Source: Polyangiaceae bacterium
GTDB taxonomy: Bacteria; Myxococcota_A; Polyangia; Polyangiales; Polyangiaceae
Length of the DNA: 64,000 bases
Assembly: GCA_025353725.1 (NCBI GenBank)
Contig: JANXOF010000086.1
Location: forward strand, 1 to 64,000
Direction of reading: 5' to 3'
Shown here: piece after piece, positions 44,698-53,040 of the stretch
Numbering within the stretch: position 1 is the first letter of the stretch
How the letters are laid out: each line of letters opens with the position of its first letter
The notes under the pieces: model-generated
What the model was told of the DNA's origin: nothing
Seen by the model: only the letters and a program-made list of their open reading frames with translations
Databases searched by the model: none
Program-made: the position numbers and the translations under genes

Positions 44698-47600
44698 TTA
44701 CTTTCCCAACGTGCAGCGAAGTCCGTAGCGACCTTGCGACCAGAGGGCACTCACGACGACATCCGATAGGTTGGTGACGGGCGGCGGCGCGGTTGAGGAT
44801 GTCTGTGCCGGGGAAGTGCCGTCATAAACTCCGGCGATGCGCTCGATGCATGTCCGCGACGCGCTAAGTCGCATCCGCGCGTAAGCTCCGTGGAGCGTGC
44901 CCGCGCCGTGGGGCAGGCGGATGCGCACGGTTGCCCCTGGCATCGACGCATCGACCACCCACCCTATCGCGCCGTCGCCGTCGCCGCAGCGCTCGAGCGT
45001 TCGGCCTGCGAGGTCGGCGTAGCCGAGCGATTGCGGCTCGCCGAAGGCGCCAGACGTGAGATCGACGGGCAGCGCCCATCGCGTCGCGGCGTTGCGCTCG
45101 GCCGTGGCTTGACCGTCGACGACAAGTGCGATGGCACCTCCGTCGGATCGTCGAGCGAGCCTAACGCCTGCGGGCCTTCCCGTGTCTGCAGCCGCGCGCG
45201 GGACTCGAACGAGCTCGCGTGCCACCGCTCCTTCAACCTGCCAGATCGTCGTGAACGCCTTCGCTTCGCCGGCCGAGGGTGGAGTCGCGAGGTACCAGCG
45301 ACCCGCCGTGCGCGTCACGGCGTCGATTTCGGCGAAAGGCTCGCCATCGGCGCGCCGGATTTCAACAGGTGCCCGCTCAGCCTCGAGCACGATAGCAGCC
45401 ACTTCGGTACGACTCATGCGGCGTGCGATGAGTAAGGCGTGGCGGCTGTCGTCGCCGCCTGCGAGTTGGAACCACCCCGCGAAGCTTGAGCTACCGCTGC
45501 CATAAGCGGAGGTTGGCGTAGTAAGATCATGCATCCACGCCGGAGGAATCGACGCCTGGGATGCTCGGGCCTCTTTCCAGTCGGCAAAAGGGGAGAGCCA
45601 CTTTATTTGCCACCTGCCCTGCGCGTCCCAGTCCCCGCCCTTGGGTCCCCACGCGTAGACGCGCCCGAGTGTGCCGATTCGAGGGTAGCGCTCGAGCAAG
45701 TCCTGAACATCGAAAGGGAGGCCGCGTTCGGAGTCCCGAAGTGCGGGCCCAGGCCGCCCGAAAAACGATGGCAACGGTGGCAACGATGGCATTGATGCAA
45801 CACCCAAGGCGCCCGAGGTTGTCATCTTCTCGGTAGGCATGGCTTGCGTTGTGGCGTTACAGGTAAGCGAGAGAACCGGAAGCGGCAACGCACTCGGAAC
45901 TAGTGCGTGAGCGGAAACTGCCGCGATTGGGCTCTTTTTTGCGTTGCCCCAGCCGACGCGAAGCCACCCCGCGGCGAGGCACCCGATGGGACCACACGCG
46001 CGTCTCTCGACCTTCGCGAGCGGTACCAGTGGCTCGGGAAGCTCAACGCTCGCCCATGTCATTCCGCCATCTGTGGTCTCAAACCCGCGCCCAGAGGGCG
46101 TCCAGCCAAGTCCGTACCTTCCGGCGACGAAAGGTAGGCCGGCGTCGCGTATGAATCGCCCGAGCATCACCTTTCCGTCGAGGGCGATTTCGAGCCCGAG
46201 CATCACACCGCCCGCTTCGATCCACCCACCGATCACGCCGGCGCGGCGCTCCTCGAAACCGTCGAGCCACACGCCGAGGCGGATCATGCGAGCCAGGTCA
46301 CTTGTGAGGGCTGGCCATACGAGGCTTCGCGTCACGGCGCGTCCGTTGGCGAGCACCGTGAGACGGGCGGTGCTCGCCAATCCTTCAGGGGGAGAGACAA
46401 TGGCGATTCGTCCGTCGACGAGACCCACGACACGCTGCCCGCCCGCATCGCCACGCACGTTGACCTCGCGCCATACGTCGTCGATACCGAAAACGCAGAA
46501 GGGATGCGGTTCGCGTGAGGGGACGCTCGTCGAGCTGGCTTCGTAAGGCGCGCGGGGCCTTTCGTCTCCGCACGAACCGCGCACCGCGAGCGTTCCGTTC
46601 GCGCCTGACGTGACGACGCGCGGAGTGTCGAATCGTTTCACTTCCCGCAAGGGACGGACGTTCGAATCATAGGCATAGATCACGGTAGGGCCGCGTGGAT
46701 CCCCGCAAACGAAGCCAAACGCACTGGCATCTCGTAGGCGCGCCAACGAGACGGGATGGCAGCGTGCGGGCGCCATGGGAAAAGCGTGCTCGTCCGTCGT
46801 GAGCAGTGCGCCGTCCGACAAACGTACTTGCGCGACGGCGCCGTCGCGCGCGACGAGCGCAGTTCCGTCGGTCCAAGGCCAGCCGTCCTCGAGGGCAGCC
46901 ACGAAAGGGCGCGTACCGAAAACGCGTCGCGCGGACCTTCGCTCTATGTTTTCGTGCTCTCGGTCGGTGGGGGCGTTCGCGCCAGTCGCGTCTGGGGAGG
47001 CCACAGCGATGGAAGGCGTCAGTCCGCCTGGCGTAAATCCCCACGGAAATCCTCCCGGTAGATACGTCCGCGGTGCCGTGGGAGATGTAGGCAACAGTGT
47101 CCCTTTTGCCTCGCGGGGCGGAGTCGCGAGGCGCGTGACCGAGGTGCCGTCATGTAGCTCGAACCAGGCGGGTGTCCTCCCGTGTTCGAGTCCGCCGATG
47201 GCGATGGACCGGCCGCTCACCACGAGCTGTTTCGGCTCGATGGCGAGGTCGAGCGAACGCCAGGTCGCGCCTGCGTCCTCCGTTACGACCACGCCTCGCA
47301 GGTCGGTGAGGGCGGCCGCTCGCCATCCGTCGACAGCGGCGAACGAGGCAACAAAGGGACTCGCCGGCCACGGTCCGAGATCGAGCGCTTCGCCCGTTCT
47401 TCCGTCGATAGCCGAATAAGCGTTTTGCGAACGCACGTACACGCGGTCGAGGCCGGGGAAAACGGCTTGAACGCCCTGCGGGAACGAAACGATGGGCCTC
47501 GTGGTGTCGAGCCAGTGTTCGGCCCGCCAGATCAGCGCGCCAACAACAAAAAGGAACCCGCCGCCAAGGCGCGCCGGTAGCGCCACCGTCAGCTGAGGGG

Positions 47601-47928
47601 TCTGCGAGAAGCGTTCGTCGGCGGACGCGAGCGCACCGTCGCGTTTGGCGACGAGGCGGAGTCCGGCGGTGAGGACTCGAAGGCTGCCGTCGGGCTCCGC
47701 GCCCAAGGCCTGGCTCTCGTCTACGCTCTCGGGAAATAGGCTTGGCCCGGGCGCGACTAACGCGCGGACTTTTCGCGTTTCGTCCGGCCGCACCAGCTCC
47801 GCATTTGGCCTCGACTCTTTTGAGGGTGAGTCCGAGCTGTTCGCCGGCGTCTTCGTGGGCGGATTCGACGGTGCTTGCCTTACACATGCCGCAAGCACGG
47901 CGAGCGGTAGGACTCGCGACGCGCGCAT
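44698..47928 (-). CDS. Very large lipoprotein with Asp-box (BNR) repeats
   Basis: A 1076-residue exported protein. The signal peptide ends in LAAC (Cys15), then a Pro/Thr/Ser linker. The remainder is beta-rich and propeller-like. Asp-box motifs include TEDAGATWRSLDL near residue 210 and TTDGGMTWASVELPEP further on, as in sialidase/sortilin-type propellers. The catalytic Arg triad of sialidases is not evident, so it is more likely a surface-binding or scaffold protein. The C-terminus contains SRTCIERIAGVYDG and ends LRCTLGK. It is divergent from asd. Function unknown. Confidence 0.82.
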   Translation of the reverse strand: MRASRVLPLAVLAACVRQAPSNPPTKTPANSSDSPSKESRPNAELVRPDETRKVRALVAPGPSLFPESVDESQALGAEPDGSLRVLTAGLRLVAKRDGALASADERFSQTPQLTVALPARLGGGFLFVVGALIWRAEHWLDTTRPIVSFPQGVQAVFPGLDRVYVRSQNAYSAIDGRTGEALDLGPWPASPFVASFAAVDGWRAAALTDLRGVVVTEDAGATWRSLDLAIEPKQLVVSGRSIAIGGLEHGRTPAWFELHDGTSVTRLATPPREAKGTLLPTSPTAPRTYLPGGFPWGFTPGGLTPSIAVASPDATGANAPTDREHENIERRSARRVFGTRPFVAALEDGWPWTDGTALVARDGAVAQVRLSDGALLTTDEHAFPMAPARCHPVSLARLRDASAFGFVCGDPRGPTVIYAYDSNVRPLREVKRFDTPRVVTSGANGTLAVRGSCGDERPRAPYEASSTSVPSREPHPFCVFGIDDVWREVNVRGDAGGQRVVGLVDGRIAIVSPPEGLASTARLTVLANGRAVTRSLVWPALTSDLARMIRLGVWLDGFEERRAGVIGGWIEAGGVMLGLEIALDGKVMLGRFIRDAGLPFVAGRYGLGWTPSGRGFETTDGGMTWASVELPEPLVPLAKVERRACGPIGCLAAGWLRVGWGNAKKSPIAAVSAHALVPSALPLPVLSLTCNATTQAMPTEKMTTSGALGVASMPSLPPLPSFFGRPGPALRDSERGLPFDVQDLLERYPRIGTLGRVYAWGPKGGDWDAQGRWQIKWLSPFADWKEARASQASIPPAWMHDLTTPTSAYGSGSSSFAGWFQLAGGDDSRHALLIARRMSRTEVAAIVLEAERAPVEIRRADGEPFAEIDAVTRTAGRWYLATPPSAGEAKAFTTIWQVEGAVARELVRVPRAAADTGRPAGVRLARRSDGGAIALVVDGQATAERNAATRWALPVDLTSGAFGEPQSLGYADLAGRTLERCGDGDGAIGWVVDASMPGATVRIRLPHGAGTLHGAYARMRLSASRTCIERIAGVYDGTSPAQTSSTAPPPVTNLSDVVVSALWSQGRYGLRCTLGK

Positions 47929-49055: not shown

Positions 49056-50279
49056 CTAGCTCGCGATTTCTCGAACACCCTCGAGAAGCACATCGATCTC
49101 TTCGGTCGTGTTGAAAAGGTGCGGACTTGCGCGCACGGTGCCAGGCAACTGCGCGCGGGCGTGAAGGACGTGCGTACAGTGAAAGCCTGCCGAGACGCAC
49201 ACGCCGAACATGTCGCAGAGCGCGCGTGCGACGCTTTCCTGGGTCATCGACGGCGCGTCGACGACAAACGTGGCGAGGGCTATCCGCTCTTCCGGGGGTA
49301 AGCGCTTCGCAAGGACGCGCACGCCGCGGATGTCGGAAAGACCGTCGAACAGGTACTTGCTCATCGCGAGATCGTGTTCGCGGATAGCGCCCATGCCGAT
49401 TCCGCGCATCCACTTTACCGCGGCGCCGAAGCCGATCGTCGCCTCGATGGCGGGGGTGCCTGCCTCAAACTTGAACGGAGCGTCACGCGGGATAAAGCCT
49501 CCGACGTCGAGGTCGTTGTTGAGGGAAACCATGCCGCCGCCGACTTGGTAGAGCGGACACTTCGCGAGAAATTCTTTTTTTGACCAGAGGATCCCGACGC
49601 CGGAAGGTCCGAAGGCTTTGTGGCTCGAGGCCGCGAGAAAATCGACACCGAGTTTCGCGATATCCAACGGGAGGTGAGAAATCGACTGCGCGGCATCAAG
49701 GAGCACCGGCACGCCGCGCGCCTTCGCGATGCGGACGACTTCTTCGACGGGGGCAATGGCGCCCGTCACGTTCGAGACATGACCAATCGAGACGAGCTTG
49801 GTCTTCGAGGTGATGAGCTTTTCGATGAGCTCCCAGCGCGGCAACCCGTCTTCGTCGATCGGCACGGGAACAGGTTTGCCGTGGAGCCGCCAAGGGATCC
49901 AGTTCGCGTGATGCTCACTCGCAGGAAAGACCACTTCGTCTTCCGGGCCGAGCTCGAGTCCGTTAGCGACAAAATTGATGGCTTCCGTGGTACCGCGCAC
50001 GAGGACGATCTCGCTCGGATTGGCTCCGATGAGCGCGCCTACCTCGCGACGCGCGTCGTCGAAAAGGCGGGTTGCCTCTTCGCCGAGGGAATGCACGCCG
50101 CGGTGCACGTTGGCGGTCGAACGCTCGTAGTACCCCACCACGGCGTCGATGACCTGCCGAGGCTTCGGCGTTGTGGACGCGTTATCGAGAAAAATGAGCG
50201 GGCGGCCCGAAAGCTCGCGCGCGAGCAGCGGGATCTGTGGGCGTACGCTCGCCGCGTGGCGATCGATCAACTCCTTCAT
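49056..50279 (-). CDS. Cysteine desulfurase (SufS type, PLP-dependent)
   Basis: A 407-residue group II cysteine desulfurase-like enzyme. It removes sulfur from cysteine as a persulfide for Fe-S clusters or thio-products. NVHRGVH and the GTTEAIN segment are typical; the PLP Lys221 is in SSHKAFGPSG and the persulfide Cys368 in AGFHC. The C-terminus has TVRASPHLFNTTEEID, a SufS hallmark. No sufB, sufC, sufD, sufE or sufU is adjacent. Instead the start overlaps the stop of a PaaK-like gene by 4 bases, implying a shared job. It converges with asd, 3 bases apart. Confidence 0.93.
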   Translation of the reverse strand: MKELIDRHAASVRPQIPLLARELSGRPLIFLDNASTTPKPRQVIDAVVGYYERSTANVHRGVHSLGEEATRLFDDARREVGALIGANPSEIVLVRGTTEAINFVANGLELGPEDEVVFPASEHHANWIPWRLHGKPVPVPIDEDGLPRWELIEKLITSKTKLVSIGHVSNVTGAIAPVEEVVRIAKARGVPVLLDAAQSISHLPLDIAKLGVDFLAASSHKAFGPSGVGILWSKKEFLAKCPLYQVGGGMVSLNNDLDVGGFIPRDAPFKFEAGTPAIEATIGFGAAVKWMRGIGMGAIREHDLAMSKYLFDGLSDIRGVRVLAKRLPPEERIALATFVVDAPSMTQESVARALCDMFGVCVSAGFHCTHVLHARAQLPGTVRASPHLFNTTEEIDVLLEGVREIAS

Positions 50280-51613
50280 CGTTCAGCTCCCTCGAATCGT
50301 TCGTAGCTCGTACCCAAACCCTCGCGTCGCGAAACTCTGTACTTCCCATTCGGCTCGACGGCGATAGCGGTCGCCTGTCGCGCGGTGAGGGTCATCCCCA
50401 CCAAAAGTGGAGCGAGAGCCGCTTTCACGGCCTCGAGCGACCCTTCGACGACCTCGACGCTCACGCTCTGCGCGTCGGTCTGCACCACCTGATAAGCCCG
50501 CGGTGACGCCTCAGTGAGGGCTCGGTCGACGGCTCCCGGCGTAACAAGTGCGCCGTCGGGCCGAAGCAGCGCGTCGGCTAGTTTGCCCTCGACGCTAACG
50601 ATGGGCGATACGGTCGTGAATCGTGAGGGGGCGCGCGCGACTTGCACCAGGTCTCCGAGCACGTAACGAACAAGCGGCTGGACCTCGCGGTCGAGCGTCG
50701 TGACGACCACGAGGGCCACATCGACGGCGCCCGGCGTCGGCACGCTGGCGCGAAGAAACTCGATGTGGGTCGTGAAAGGTGCATGATGCAACAGCTTGTC
50801 CTCGCCCTCGACGAAAAGGACGCCTGCCTCGCGAGCCCCGTAAATTTGGACTGTTTCGGCCGTCGGGCAAACCGCTTTGAGGCCCGCGCGGTGAGCGGTG
50901 GTCGTGAGGCCGCGCGTGAGGCCCACGAAACCACGGACGTCGAGAGACCTCCGCTGGGCGCTCGCGTGCCGCGCGAGGACGTCAAGGTAGAACGGATCCG
51001 CGAGCAACCCGACGGTCGCGTGGCGTGCCAGCTCGTCGAGCATCCGTGTCATGACCGGCTCGGACCAAAACGTCGGGTCCTGTCTCGAGTTCAAGTGAAG
51101 GCGGTTCCCCTCCAGACGCTCTTCGAATTCGGGATCGCCCGACCCACATGAGCCCGTTCCGCGTTCGGGTATCCAAAGTACGGCCTCACGGTAGGCCCCG
51201 AACGCGCCGTCAAGCGCGGCCGCGGCTGTCTTGTTCATGCGAAGCGCGCGTGCCTCTTGGGCGCGCCACCACGCGCCGTCCCAAAGAAGGCGAATTCGGT
51301 CCTCCGCAAGGCCTGTCTCGACGACTTTGAGCTTTCCCATGGCAAATTCGGCCCTCCCGTCTCGACCGTCGGGGAGCCATGCCTTGGGCAGTGTGGGCCT
51401 CACCTGGGCCGCCGTGAGGAGCGGTAACGCGGCGAGCGCGTCTTTCAGCGAAGTCGCCTCTCCAAGGGCCGGTGGTTTTACATACTTCGCGTAAAATGGA
51501 ATGCGCTGGAGGGCCTTGCGGAGGGCCTGCACCGTTCGCTCGACGTGCTCGCTATCGGGGACGGGGAGAGCTTGATTGTCATCCAGCAGCGCCATCGCGC
51601 CGTCAGATAGCAC
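50276..51613 (-). CDS. Phenylacetate-CoA ligase-like (PaaK/CapK) adenylate-forming protein
   Basis: A 445-residue member of the adenylate-forming superfamily. Core motifs seen are YGAREAG (A5-like YGxxE), RYVLGDLV (A7-like, Asp binding the ribose) and NGKYRVSRRE near the C-terminus (A10-like Lys). However, the Ser/Thr/Gly-rich phosphate loop expected near residue 100 reads ETGLAEDR instead of TSGTTGxP, so ATP binding may be altered. It is the upstream gene of a two-gene unit with the cysteine desulfurase (ATGA overlap), which suggests activation of a carboxylate coupled to sulfur transfer; that is an inference. Starts at 51613 or 51595 are possible. Confidence 0.75.
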   Translation of the reverse strand: MLSDGAMALLDDNQALPVPDSEHVERTVQALRKALQRIPFYAKYVKPPALGEATSLKDALAALPLLTAAQVRPTLPKAWLPDGRDGRAEFAMGKLKVVETGLAEDRIRLLWDGAWWRAQEARALRMNKTAAAALDGAFGAYREAVLWIPERGTGSCGSGDPEFEERLEGNRLHLNSRQDPTFWSEPVMTRMLDELARHATVGLLADPFYLDVLARHASAQRRSLDVRGFVGLTRGLTTTAHRAGLKAVCPTAETVQIYGAREAGVLFVEGEDKLLHHAPFTTHIEFLRASVPTPGAVDVALVVVTTLDREVQPLVRYVLGDLVQVARAPSRFTTVSPIVSVEGKLADALLRPDGALVTPGAVDRALTEASPRAYQVVQTDAQSVSVEVVEGSLEAVKAALAPLLVGMTLTARQATAIAVEPNGKYRVSRREGLGTSYERFEGAER

Positions 51614-51669: not shown

Positions 51670-53040
51670 ATGCCATGGCACCTCGATTCCTGGAAAGACA
51701 AGCCCCTTGCCCAAGAGGTCGCCTACGACGACCCCGCTGCCGTTGCGAGCGTGGTCGCAAAGCTCTCGCAGCTACCGCCTCTCGTGACGTCGTGGGAGGT
51801 GGAGCGGCTCAAAGCCTCGATCGCCGAGGCTCAGGCCGGGAAGCGCTTTGTGCTCCAAGGGGGGGACTGCGCCGAGACCTTGCTCGATTGCCAACCGGGC
51901 ATCATCGCCAACAAGCTCAAGATCCTCCTGCAGATGTCGATGGTGCTCGTGCACGCCGGGAAAAAGCCCGTTGTTCGCATTGGTCGCCTTGCGGGCCAGT
52001 ATGCGAAGCCGCGGTCGAAGCCGACCGAGGAGCGTGACGGGGTCTCGTTGCCTAGCTACTTCGGCGACCTCGTCAATCAGCCAGAGTTTACCGCGGATGC
52101 CCGCCGTGCGCACCCCCGCGCGCTGCTCGACGCCTACAGCCATGCGGCGCTTACGCTCAACTTCGTGCGGTCGCTCACGGCCGCGGGGTTCGCCGACCTT
52201 CATCACCCTGAGTATTGGGATCTCGGGTTTTTCTCGCGCTCCGGGCTGACGCGCGAGTTGCGTGACGAATACATGCAAACCACGGAGCGACTCTCTGAGG
52301 CCCTTCGCTTCATGGAGGCGTTGGGTGAGACGACGGTTGACGAGCTTTCTCGCGTCGATTTCTATACGAGCCACGAGGGGCTAAACCTTCACTACGAAGC
52401 GGCTCAGACGCGTCAAGTCCCGCGGCGCGACGGTCACTACCTGTTGACCACGCACATGCCGTGGATTGGCGAGCGAACGCGCCACCTTGGCGGGGCGCAC
52501 GTCGAGTTTTTCAGGGGTATTCAAAACGTGGTCGGCGTGAAGCTGGGGCCCAAGGTCGACCCGCAGGACGCCGTCACGTTGCTCACGTGCCTCAACCCGA
52601 CCAACGAGGCCGGCAAGCTCGTGTGCATCACGCGCATGGGCGCCGCGGAGGTCGAGCGCGCACTTCCGCCGCTCGTTTCCGCTGTCACGGCGGCCGGTCT
52701 GCGCGTCCTTTGGATGTGCGACCCCATGCACGGAAATACGCAAGCGACCGCGACGGGAATCAAGACGCGTAGTTTCGATGACATCCTTCTCGAGATCGAG
52801 CGTTCGTTCGCCGTGCACGCCGACGCAAAAACACACCTCGGGGGTATCCACTTCGAGTTGACCGGGGAGGACGTGACCGAATGCATTGGGGGCGGCCTGA
52901 CGGAGGCGGACCTCGACAAGAACTACGCGAGCGTCTGCGATCCCAGATTGAACTATCGCCAAGCGCTCGAGATGGCGTTCCGGGTCGGCAGTTGGATCCG
53001 TAGAGCGTCTGCGCCAAGACAAAGCCCGACGCGCGCATAA
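51670..53040 (+). CDS. 3-deoxy-7-phosphoheptulonate (DAHP) synthase, class II
   Basis: A 456-residue enzyme that condenses phosphoenolpyruvate with erythrose 4-phosphate, the first step of the shikimate route. It is of the plant-type class II group: MPWHLDSWKDKPLAQEV at the N-terminus, VLQGGDCAETL with the metal Cys, GRLAGQYAKPRS, THMPWIGERTR, VGVKLGPK, DPMHGNT with the metal His, GGIHFELTGEDVTEC, and NYASVCDPRLN. The ATG at 51670 is the natural start although the frame is open upstream. Length is full. It is divergent from the PaaK-like/desulfurase pair with 56 bases between starts. Class II enzymes serve both as housekeeping and in secondary metabolism. Confidence 0.95.
   Translation: MPWHLDSWKDKPLAQEVAYDDPAAVASVVAKLSQLPPLVTSWEVERLKASIAEAQAGKRFVLQGGDCAETLLDCQPGIIANKLKILLQMSMVLVHAGKKPVVRIGRLAGQYAKPRSKPTEERDGVSLPSYFGDLVNQPEFTADARRAHPRALLDAYSHAALTLNFVRSLTAAGFADLHHPEYWDLGFFSRSGLTRELRDEYMQTTERLSEALRFMEALGETTVDELSRVDFYTSHEGLNLHYEAAQTRQVPRRDGHYLLTTHMPWIGERTRHLGGAHVEFFRGIQNVVGVKLGPKVDPQDAVTLLTCLNPTNEAGKLVCITRMGAAEVERALPPLVSAVTAAGLRVLWMCDPMHGNTQATATGIKTRSFDDILLEIERSFAVHADAKTHLGGIHFELTGEDVTECIGGGLTEADLDKNYASVCDPRLNYRQALEMAFRVGSWIRRASAPRQSPTRA

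Follow-up and report, generated by a model that had tools for sequence, protein, structure and literature searches.

As shown in Table 1, the window (the whole 64,000-nucleotide stretch of DNA analysed) contains two minus-strand genes, for a PaaK-like protein and a cysteine desulfurase, joined by an ATGA overlap. Both frames lay at the coordinates given by the original prediction, apart from the start of the PaaK-like gene, which had been placed at GTG 51613. A codon-usage gene caller selected ATG 51595 instead, and this codon aligned with the starts (chosen by hand, not by program) of eight PaaK-like homologues from the window's genus; ATG 51595 is probably the likelier start. Lys221 (SSHK) and Cys368 (GFHC) of the desulfurase were read in frame, as had been claimed, and so were the motifs said to be kept by the PaaK-like protein, namely YGARE (252–256), GD (314–315) and K418 in NGKYR, numbered from ATG 51595. 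The ATG of a DAHP synthase gene (51670) was 74 bp from that of the PaaK-like gene.

Table 1. Genes, overlap and key codons of the desulfurase/PaaK-like locus (positions in the window)
Feature	Position	Strand	Basis
Cysteine desulfurase, SufS-type (type II); 407 aa; lies second in the pair	49056..50279	(-)	
PaaK-like protein with predicted adenylate-forming (ANL) fold; 439 aa if started at ATG 51595	50276..51595	(-)	
ATGA stop/start overlap: PaaK-like stop 50278-50276, desulfurase ATG 50279-50277	50276..50279	(-)	
ETGLAEDR codons (residues 93-100 from ATG 51595), degenerate phosphate loop of PaaK-like protein	51296..51319	(-)	alignment
Cys150 codon, PaaK-like protein; proposed sulfur acceptor	51146..51148	(-)	alignment
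Lys418 codon (NGKYR), PaaK-like protein; C-terminal ANL catalytic-lysine position	50342..50344	(-)	
Cys368 codon (GFHC), active-site cysteine of desulfurase	49176..49178	(-)	
Lys221 codon (SSHK), PLP-binding lysine of desulfurase	49617..49619	(-)	
DAHP synthase of class II; divergent neighbour, its link taken as positional and the gene as outside the unit	51670..53040	(+)	

Both genes were searched for in 58 relatives, the window's genus being represented by the source genome and 11 others. A close copy of the PaaK-like gene was found in the source genome and in nine of the 11, and in all ten carriers it adjoined a desulfurase (82–92% identical). One member (G006) had two copies of the pair (L069 and L068). 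G008 and G010, of the same genus, were without both genes and had only a 30%-identical desulfurase-like match; these two assemblies were 98 and 100% complete. At E<=1, the PaaK-like protein matched the source genome once only.

When 317 genomes of the class were searched, 34 had a PaaK-like relative at E<1e-50, and in 21 of these a desulfurase lay directly beside it (the ten genus carriers, G510, G511, G496, G495, G520, G521, G431, G432, G433, G030 and G146). In G343 the desulfurase adjoined another PaaK-like paralogue, in G413 and G418 one gene lay between the two, and G414 was outside the adjacency tally. No desulfurase was detected in the flanks seen of nine genomes (G326, G329, G330, G331, G333, G334, G335, G477 and G482), those of G333 and G335 being 1.5 kb only. 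Six of the nine had other desulfurase matches (E<=1e-40), on contigs other than that of the PaaK-like gene and mostly in open frames of >600 aa; three had none. The two genes were co-directional at all 24 loci measured (G001 is excluded from the gap table). At the 21 loci with the PaaK-like gene first, the intergenic gap ranged from -23 to +8 nt; the order was reversed in G146 (desulfurase first, gap -4), and the desulfurase also came first in G413 and G418, before the intervening gene.

By comparison, 63 control PaaK-type loci from outside the family had no desulfurase within the ~1.5 kb of flank fetched (some of these loci repeat one gene from different searches and some flanks end at a contig edge). 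An evenly drawn sample of the phylum (377 genomes) gave 20 PaaK-like matches at E<=1e-45, of which only five reached E<1e-100, all from the same class, and a plasmid collection gave only two weak PaaK-family matches. The adjacency counts indicated that the pairing was not due to chance; the pair is real and old. The proposal that the two genes are one functional unit was upheld by their adjacency in further genera and other families of the same class: adjacency was not limited to the source genome, and homologues of the PaaK-like protein were not always located away from desulfurases, which excluded both outcomes set in advance as refuting it.

The window, G009, G520 and G521 were the only ones with a DAHP synthase gene no more than 4 kb from the PaaK-like gene (several other contigs end before that distance). 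It was on the opposite strand at all four loci, and in the window and G009 it belonged to a larger run of shared neighbours. The suggested functional link to this enzyme was not supported by the neighbourhood comparison and was set aside as positional only. A major-facilitator transporter was a commoner neighbour (eight genomes), located upstream in the same orientation in G001 (abutting), G003, G004, G007, G009, G520 and G521 and 7 kb off in G011; it had no match in the source genome at E<=1e-60. A Ser/Thr kinase gene diverged upstream within ~800 bp at six genus loci. Although it could be part of the locus, kinases of this sort abound in these bacteria, and this neighbour was hence given no weight. 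A Peptidase_S51-type gene (Pfam identification was run on one of them) adjoined PaaK-like genes without a desulfurase at L145, L146, L147, L148, L149, L150 and L153, and G432 and G433 had S51, PaaK-like and desulfurase genes together; the source genome had no S51 match at E<=1e-4. Elsewhere in the window, a 1076-aa protein (44698–47928) with only a below-cut-off BNR-repeat signal was the divergent neighbour of asd, and a homologue was also near asd in G001 and G007.

Different neighbours were seen in distant relatives. In G146 (L106, 4132–9741), a 47-aa peptide (identified by eye), the desulfurase, the PaaK-like protein, HlyD and a weak below-cut-off match to an M50 peptidase were encoded together. 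The N-terminal region of this PaaK-like protein was PqqD-like by eye and gave a weak winged-helix match but no PqqD match in Pfam; the locus looks like a modified-peptide cluster. One motif scan detected no such small peptide in the window at 40–60 kb or at the genus loci. G343 (L154/L155, contig C38) encoded several PaaK-like proteins with N-terminal extensions (PqqD-like by eye, without a Pfam match), a desulfurase, HlyD and a TldD-type gene, and the G418 cluster a P450 (by eye), the desulfurase, an O-methyltransferase and the PaaK-like protein. In G030 (L072, 3135–18499), a myxobacterial relative with a 12.2-Mb genome, the pair was surrounded by a lux-like gene set (luciferase-like monooxygenase, LuxC, LuxE and an acyl transferase of LuxD type) and by three radical-SAM genes. 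Because the loci of G146, G343, G418 and G030 look biosynthetic, they support special metabolism over housekeeping.

By Pfam, the desulfurase belongs to the class V PLP enzymes (Aminotran_5, E=1.3e-106). It was nearest to SufS, yet scored below the NCBIfam TIGR01979 cut-off (366.9 vs 475.1 bits), and its best solved relatives were SufS-type desulfurases. Its catalytic residues were intact, i.e. the PLP lysine K221, the active-site H123/H124 and the persulfide C368. Among the desulfurases linked to a PaaK-like gene, the PLP lysine and the histidine were kept in 23/23 aligned rows and the cysteine in the 22 readable ones, the G510 gene being out of frame at its tail. The motif following the catalytic Cys was H(V/I)LH(A/H)R in linked enzymes (as read in the window's genus, G495, G496, G511, G520, G521 and G431–G433) and QP in unlinked ones.

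In a tree, a clade with full support (1.0) united the 16 unlinked desulfurases sampled from related genomes, both canonical-length enzymes and long ones resembling encapsulin cargo, to the exclusion of the 23 linked enzymes, among which deep nodes were weakly supported; G007, cut by a contig end, is not in this alignment. The clade order of the linked desulfurases resembled that of the PaaK-like tree, and pairwise distances of the two genes were correlated (r=0.95, 0/2000 permutations, n=21, without G510); both the tree likeness and the correlation partly reflect shared species history. In five genus pairs, dN/dS was 0.14–0.24 for the PaaK-like gene and 0.06–0.17 for the desulfurase, some dS values being near or above 1. 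Purifying selection acts on both genes; the PaaK-like one is no pseudogene in decay.

The original prediction had found no Suf partner near the desulfurase, and this extended genome-wide. In the source assembly (6.6 Mb, 97.55% complete) no SufB/SufD match was obtained, the control search being positive in 14/14 genomes, and no SufE match was obtained there or in any of 19 genomes overall. SufE was present in five and absent from nine of 14 control genomes; its absence is thus common. Other contigs of the source genome carried a NifU_N/IscU gene and one more desulfurase-like gene (32% identical, and IscS-type on our reading of its sequence). Since SUF partners were not found in the source genome, the SufS-type enzyme here is an orphan.

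A Pfam search of the PaaK-like protein gave no match at E<=1, and NCBIfam gave only weak PaaK-type matches confined to its second half, with the TIGR02155 cut-off not reached (12.5 vs 646.3 bits). A profile built from 21 relatives matched solved PaaK-type ligases (4r1l, E=1.1e-32; AjiA1, 1.3e-29), and hhalign of the family against E. coli PaaK gave 98.3%; on these matches, the protein is predicted to be an ANL-fold member of the PaaK group. An AlphaFold2 model from the window protein and two relatives had a pLDDT of only 40.8 and was set aside. The PaaK-like protein of one relative was 74% identical to that of the window.

The phosphate loop reads ETGLAEDR, and its earlier description as degenerate proved apt for the window's genus, since aligned proteins from outside keep a near-consensus loop. 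In an alignment of 31 relatives (without G001, which has a run of N, the truncated second G006 copy, G333, G335 and G414), the loop was degenerate in 9/9 genus copies and only there. All nine were at least one residue short and had lost the Ser/Thr pattern (ETGLAE, ETGLGE, DTGSAD, EAGSAD, EVGTSE and EVGGA), and the 22 rows outside the genus had loops such as TAGSTGE (G495) and TSGTTE (G433). The A8 arginine was replaced by Lys, Ser or Thr in eight of the nine genus copies and stays in G011; the A5 tyrosine was kept in five and replaced in four, and the A5 glutamate was lost in G009. GD (D315, the ribose-binding Asp) and the C-terminal catalytic K418 were kept in all nine. A passage of a review (PMC8388817) assigns ATP contacts to these ANL motifs and describes large activity losses on changing the loop Thr and Gly.

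Cys150 was present in 23/23 desulfurase-linked aligned PaaK-like proteins and in 0/7 unlinked ones. It was the only cysteine column filled in all 23, and in four of the nine genus copies (G004, G005, G007 and G009) it was the sole cysteine. Only R100, C150, E279 and P307 separated linked from unlinked rows (criterion: a residue shared by 95% or more of the linked rows and found in no unlinked row). Because the unlinked rows (G482, G477 and the f20 genomes) amount to little more than a single clade, the correlation of Cys150 with linkage may reflect one evolutionary event. G343b, with Cys150 but no adjacent desulfurase (there is one on the same contig), was put in neither set. The Cys150 segment aligned with TGGLGAHYG of E. 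coli PaaK, which presumably places this cysteine near the acid pocket.

We tentatively propose, at a little under an even chance, that the pair is a dedicated sulfur-transfer unit, in which the orphan SufS-type desulfurase would pass persulfide sulfur to Cys150 of its PaaK-fold partner. According to a passage of PMC10011822, the SufS persulfide is protected and requires a transpersulfurase; given this requirement, the failure to find SufE and the one invariant cysteine, the PaaK-like protein is a natural acceptor candidate. From the residues of its family, the desulfurase would move cysteine sulfur onto Cys368 with PLP held on Lys221, and the persulfide sulfur would then go to Cys150, the PaaK-like partner replacing the missing SufE. 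In the parent family that keeps the loop, the PaaK-like protein could adenylate a carboxylate and pass it the sulfur, so that a thiocarboxylate or a Cys150 thioester forms; thiolation of an ATP-activated carboxylate was probably the ancestral role. In the window's genus, the PaaK-like protein would most likely use ATP inefficiently if at all and either receive and deliver sulfur or bind an acid whose activation happens elsewhere, because the loop was lost under continued selection while Cys150, GD and the C-terminal lysine were retained. As a whole the pair may, as first suggested, hand sulfur to a carboxylate that has been bound or activated. The narrower idea that the genus protein is an ATP-free, single-cysteine sulfur receiver derived from an acid-activating enzyme is unlikely; if true, it would add a class of desulfurase partner outside SufE, SufU, TusA and the rhodaneses, with a receiver evolved from a thiocarboxylate-making family that in some bacteria may act on peptides (the G146 and G343 clusters).

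The PaaK-like protein could still be an ordinary acid-activating ligase with an odd loop, making acyl-AMP or acyl-CoA, with Cys150 shaping the acid pocket and the desulfurase feeding a separate later step. The well-supported ANL fold (4r1l and E. coli PaaK matches), the retained GD and K418, the intact loop of relatives outside the genus and the biosynthetic look of clusters such as G418 all agree with this, but nine genus copies are without the loop, eight without the A8 arginine and four without the A5 tyrosine, loop Thr/Gly mutants lose much activity (passage of PMC8388817), and Cys150 is the sole cysteine in four of the nine. We regard such a ligase as somewhat unlikely. It is quite unlikely that the SufS-type enzyme is some other PLP enzyme, a C-S lyase or selenocysteine lyase, acting on the product of the PaaK-like partner: no linked row lacks the PLP lysine or the histidine (23 rows) or, where readable, the Cys (22 rows), and the best solved relatives are SufS-type desulfurases, although the sufS score below cut-off, the altered motif after the catalytic Cys and the split from unlinked enzymes in the tree would fit it.

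A desulfurase serving Fe-S clusters or tRNA thiolation beside a PaaK-like gene that is an unrelated passenger or regulator would suit the SufS-type sequence. Against it, NifU_N/IscU and another desulfurase-like gene lie elsewhere in the source genome, where SufB/SufD gave no match; the pair is missing from two genus members whose assemblies are 98 and 100% complete; and the gene coupling persists across families. Together these make it very improbable. Part of the surrounding block (asd, lgt) is common to some genomes, as chance adjacency inside a syntenic block would have it, but the coupling survives different neighbours and one reversal of order, and no control locus had a desulfurase; we give chance next to no weight.

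For the proposed sulfur-transfer unit, a literature search of open-licence PubMed Central papers found no description of a desulfurase/PaaK-like pair, and the pair possibly marks a sulfur-transfer route not yet described. A desulfurase tied to a protein of acid-binding type across many members of the class provides a gene signature for mining, Cys150 is a single residue open to test, and the series from loop-intact to loop-lost partners is a natural one for asking when the need for ATP ended.

Several known systems resemble parts of the pair. The cargo desulfurase of family 2A encapsulins has a SufS-type domain close to the window desulfurase (361.8 bits), but the latter (407 aa) is without the long N-terminal region, covers only positions 227–622 of the 623 of model NF041166 and falls below its cut-off of 800 bits. 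PaaK-type aryl-CoA ligases (E. coli PaaK, 4r1l and AjiA1) have the ANL fold, GD and the C-terminal Lys in common with the PaaK-like protein; unlike them, the window-genus proteins are without the Ser/Thr phosphate loop (9/9), the A8 Arg (8/9) and the CxCG pair, and the PaaK-like protein has its own segment carrying Cys150. SufS-SufE and SufS-SufU likewise have a type II desulfurase with a PLP Lys and a persulfide Cys, and a protein acceptor with a single key Cys is proposed to be needed in the window pair too. In the window pair, however, the candidate acceptor is a predicted ANL-fold protein, SufE was found in 0/19 genomes and SufB/SufD not in the source genome, and the linked desulfurases are separate from unlinked ones, with a different loop after the Cys.

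LarE is a PP-loop enzyme, not an ANL protein. In a passage of PMC9283937, LarE moves sulfur onto a nicotinic acid-derived substrate and T. maritima LarE can be reloaded by a cysteine desulfurase; the donor named there is E. coli IscS, not a dedicated partner gene. Thiocarboxylic acid natural products are called rare, and their biosynthesis obscure until recently, in a passage of PMC6006322, which describes the PtmA3/PtmU4 thioacid cassette as two proteins for carboxylate activation and sulfur transfer. That cassette uses coenzyme A activation, a sulfur step by PtmU4 and sulfur-carrier donors, whereas the partner in the window pair is a desulfurase. By analogy, LarE and PtmA3/PtmU4 set a precedent for passing sulfur to an activated acid.
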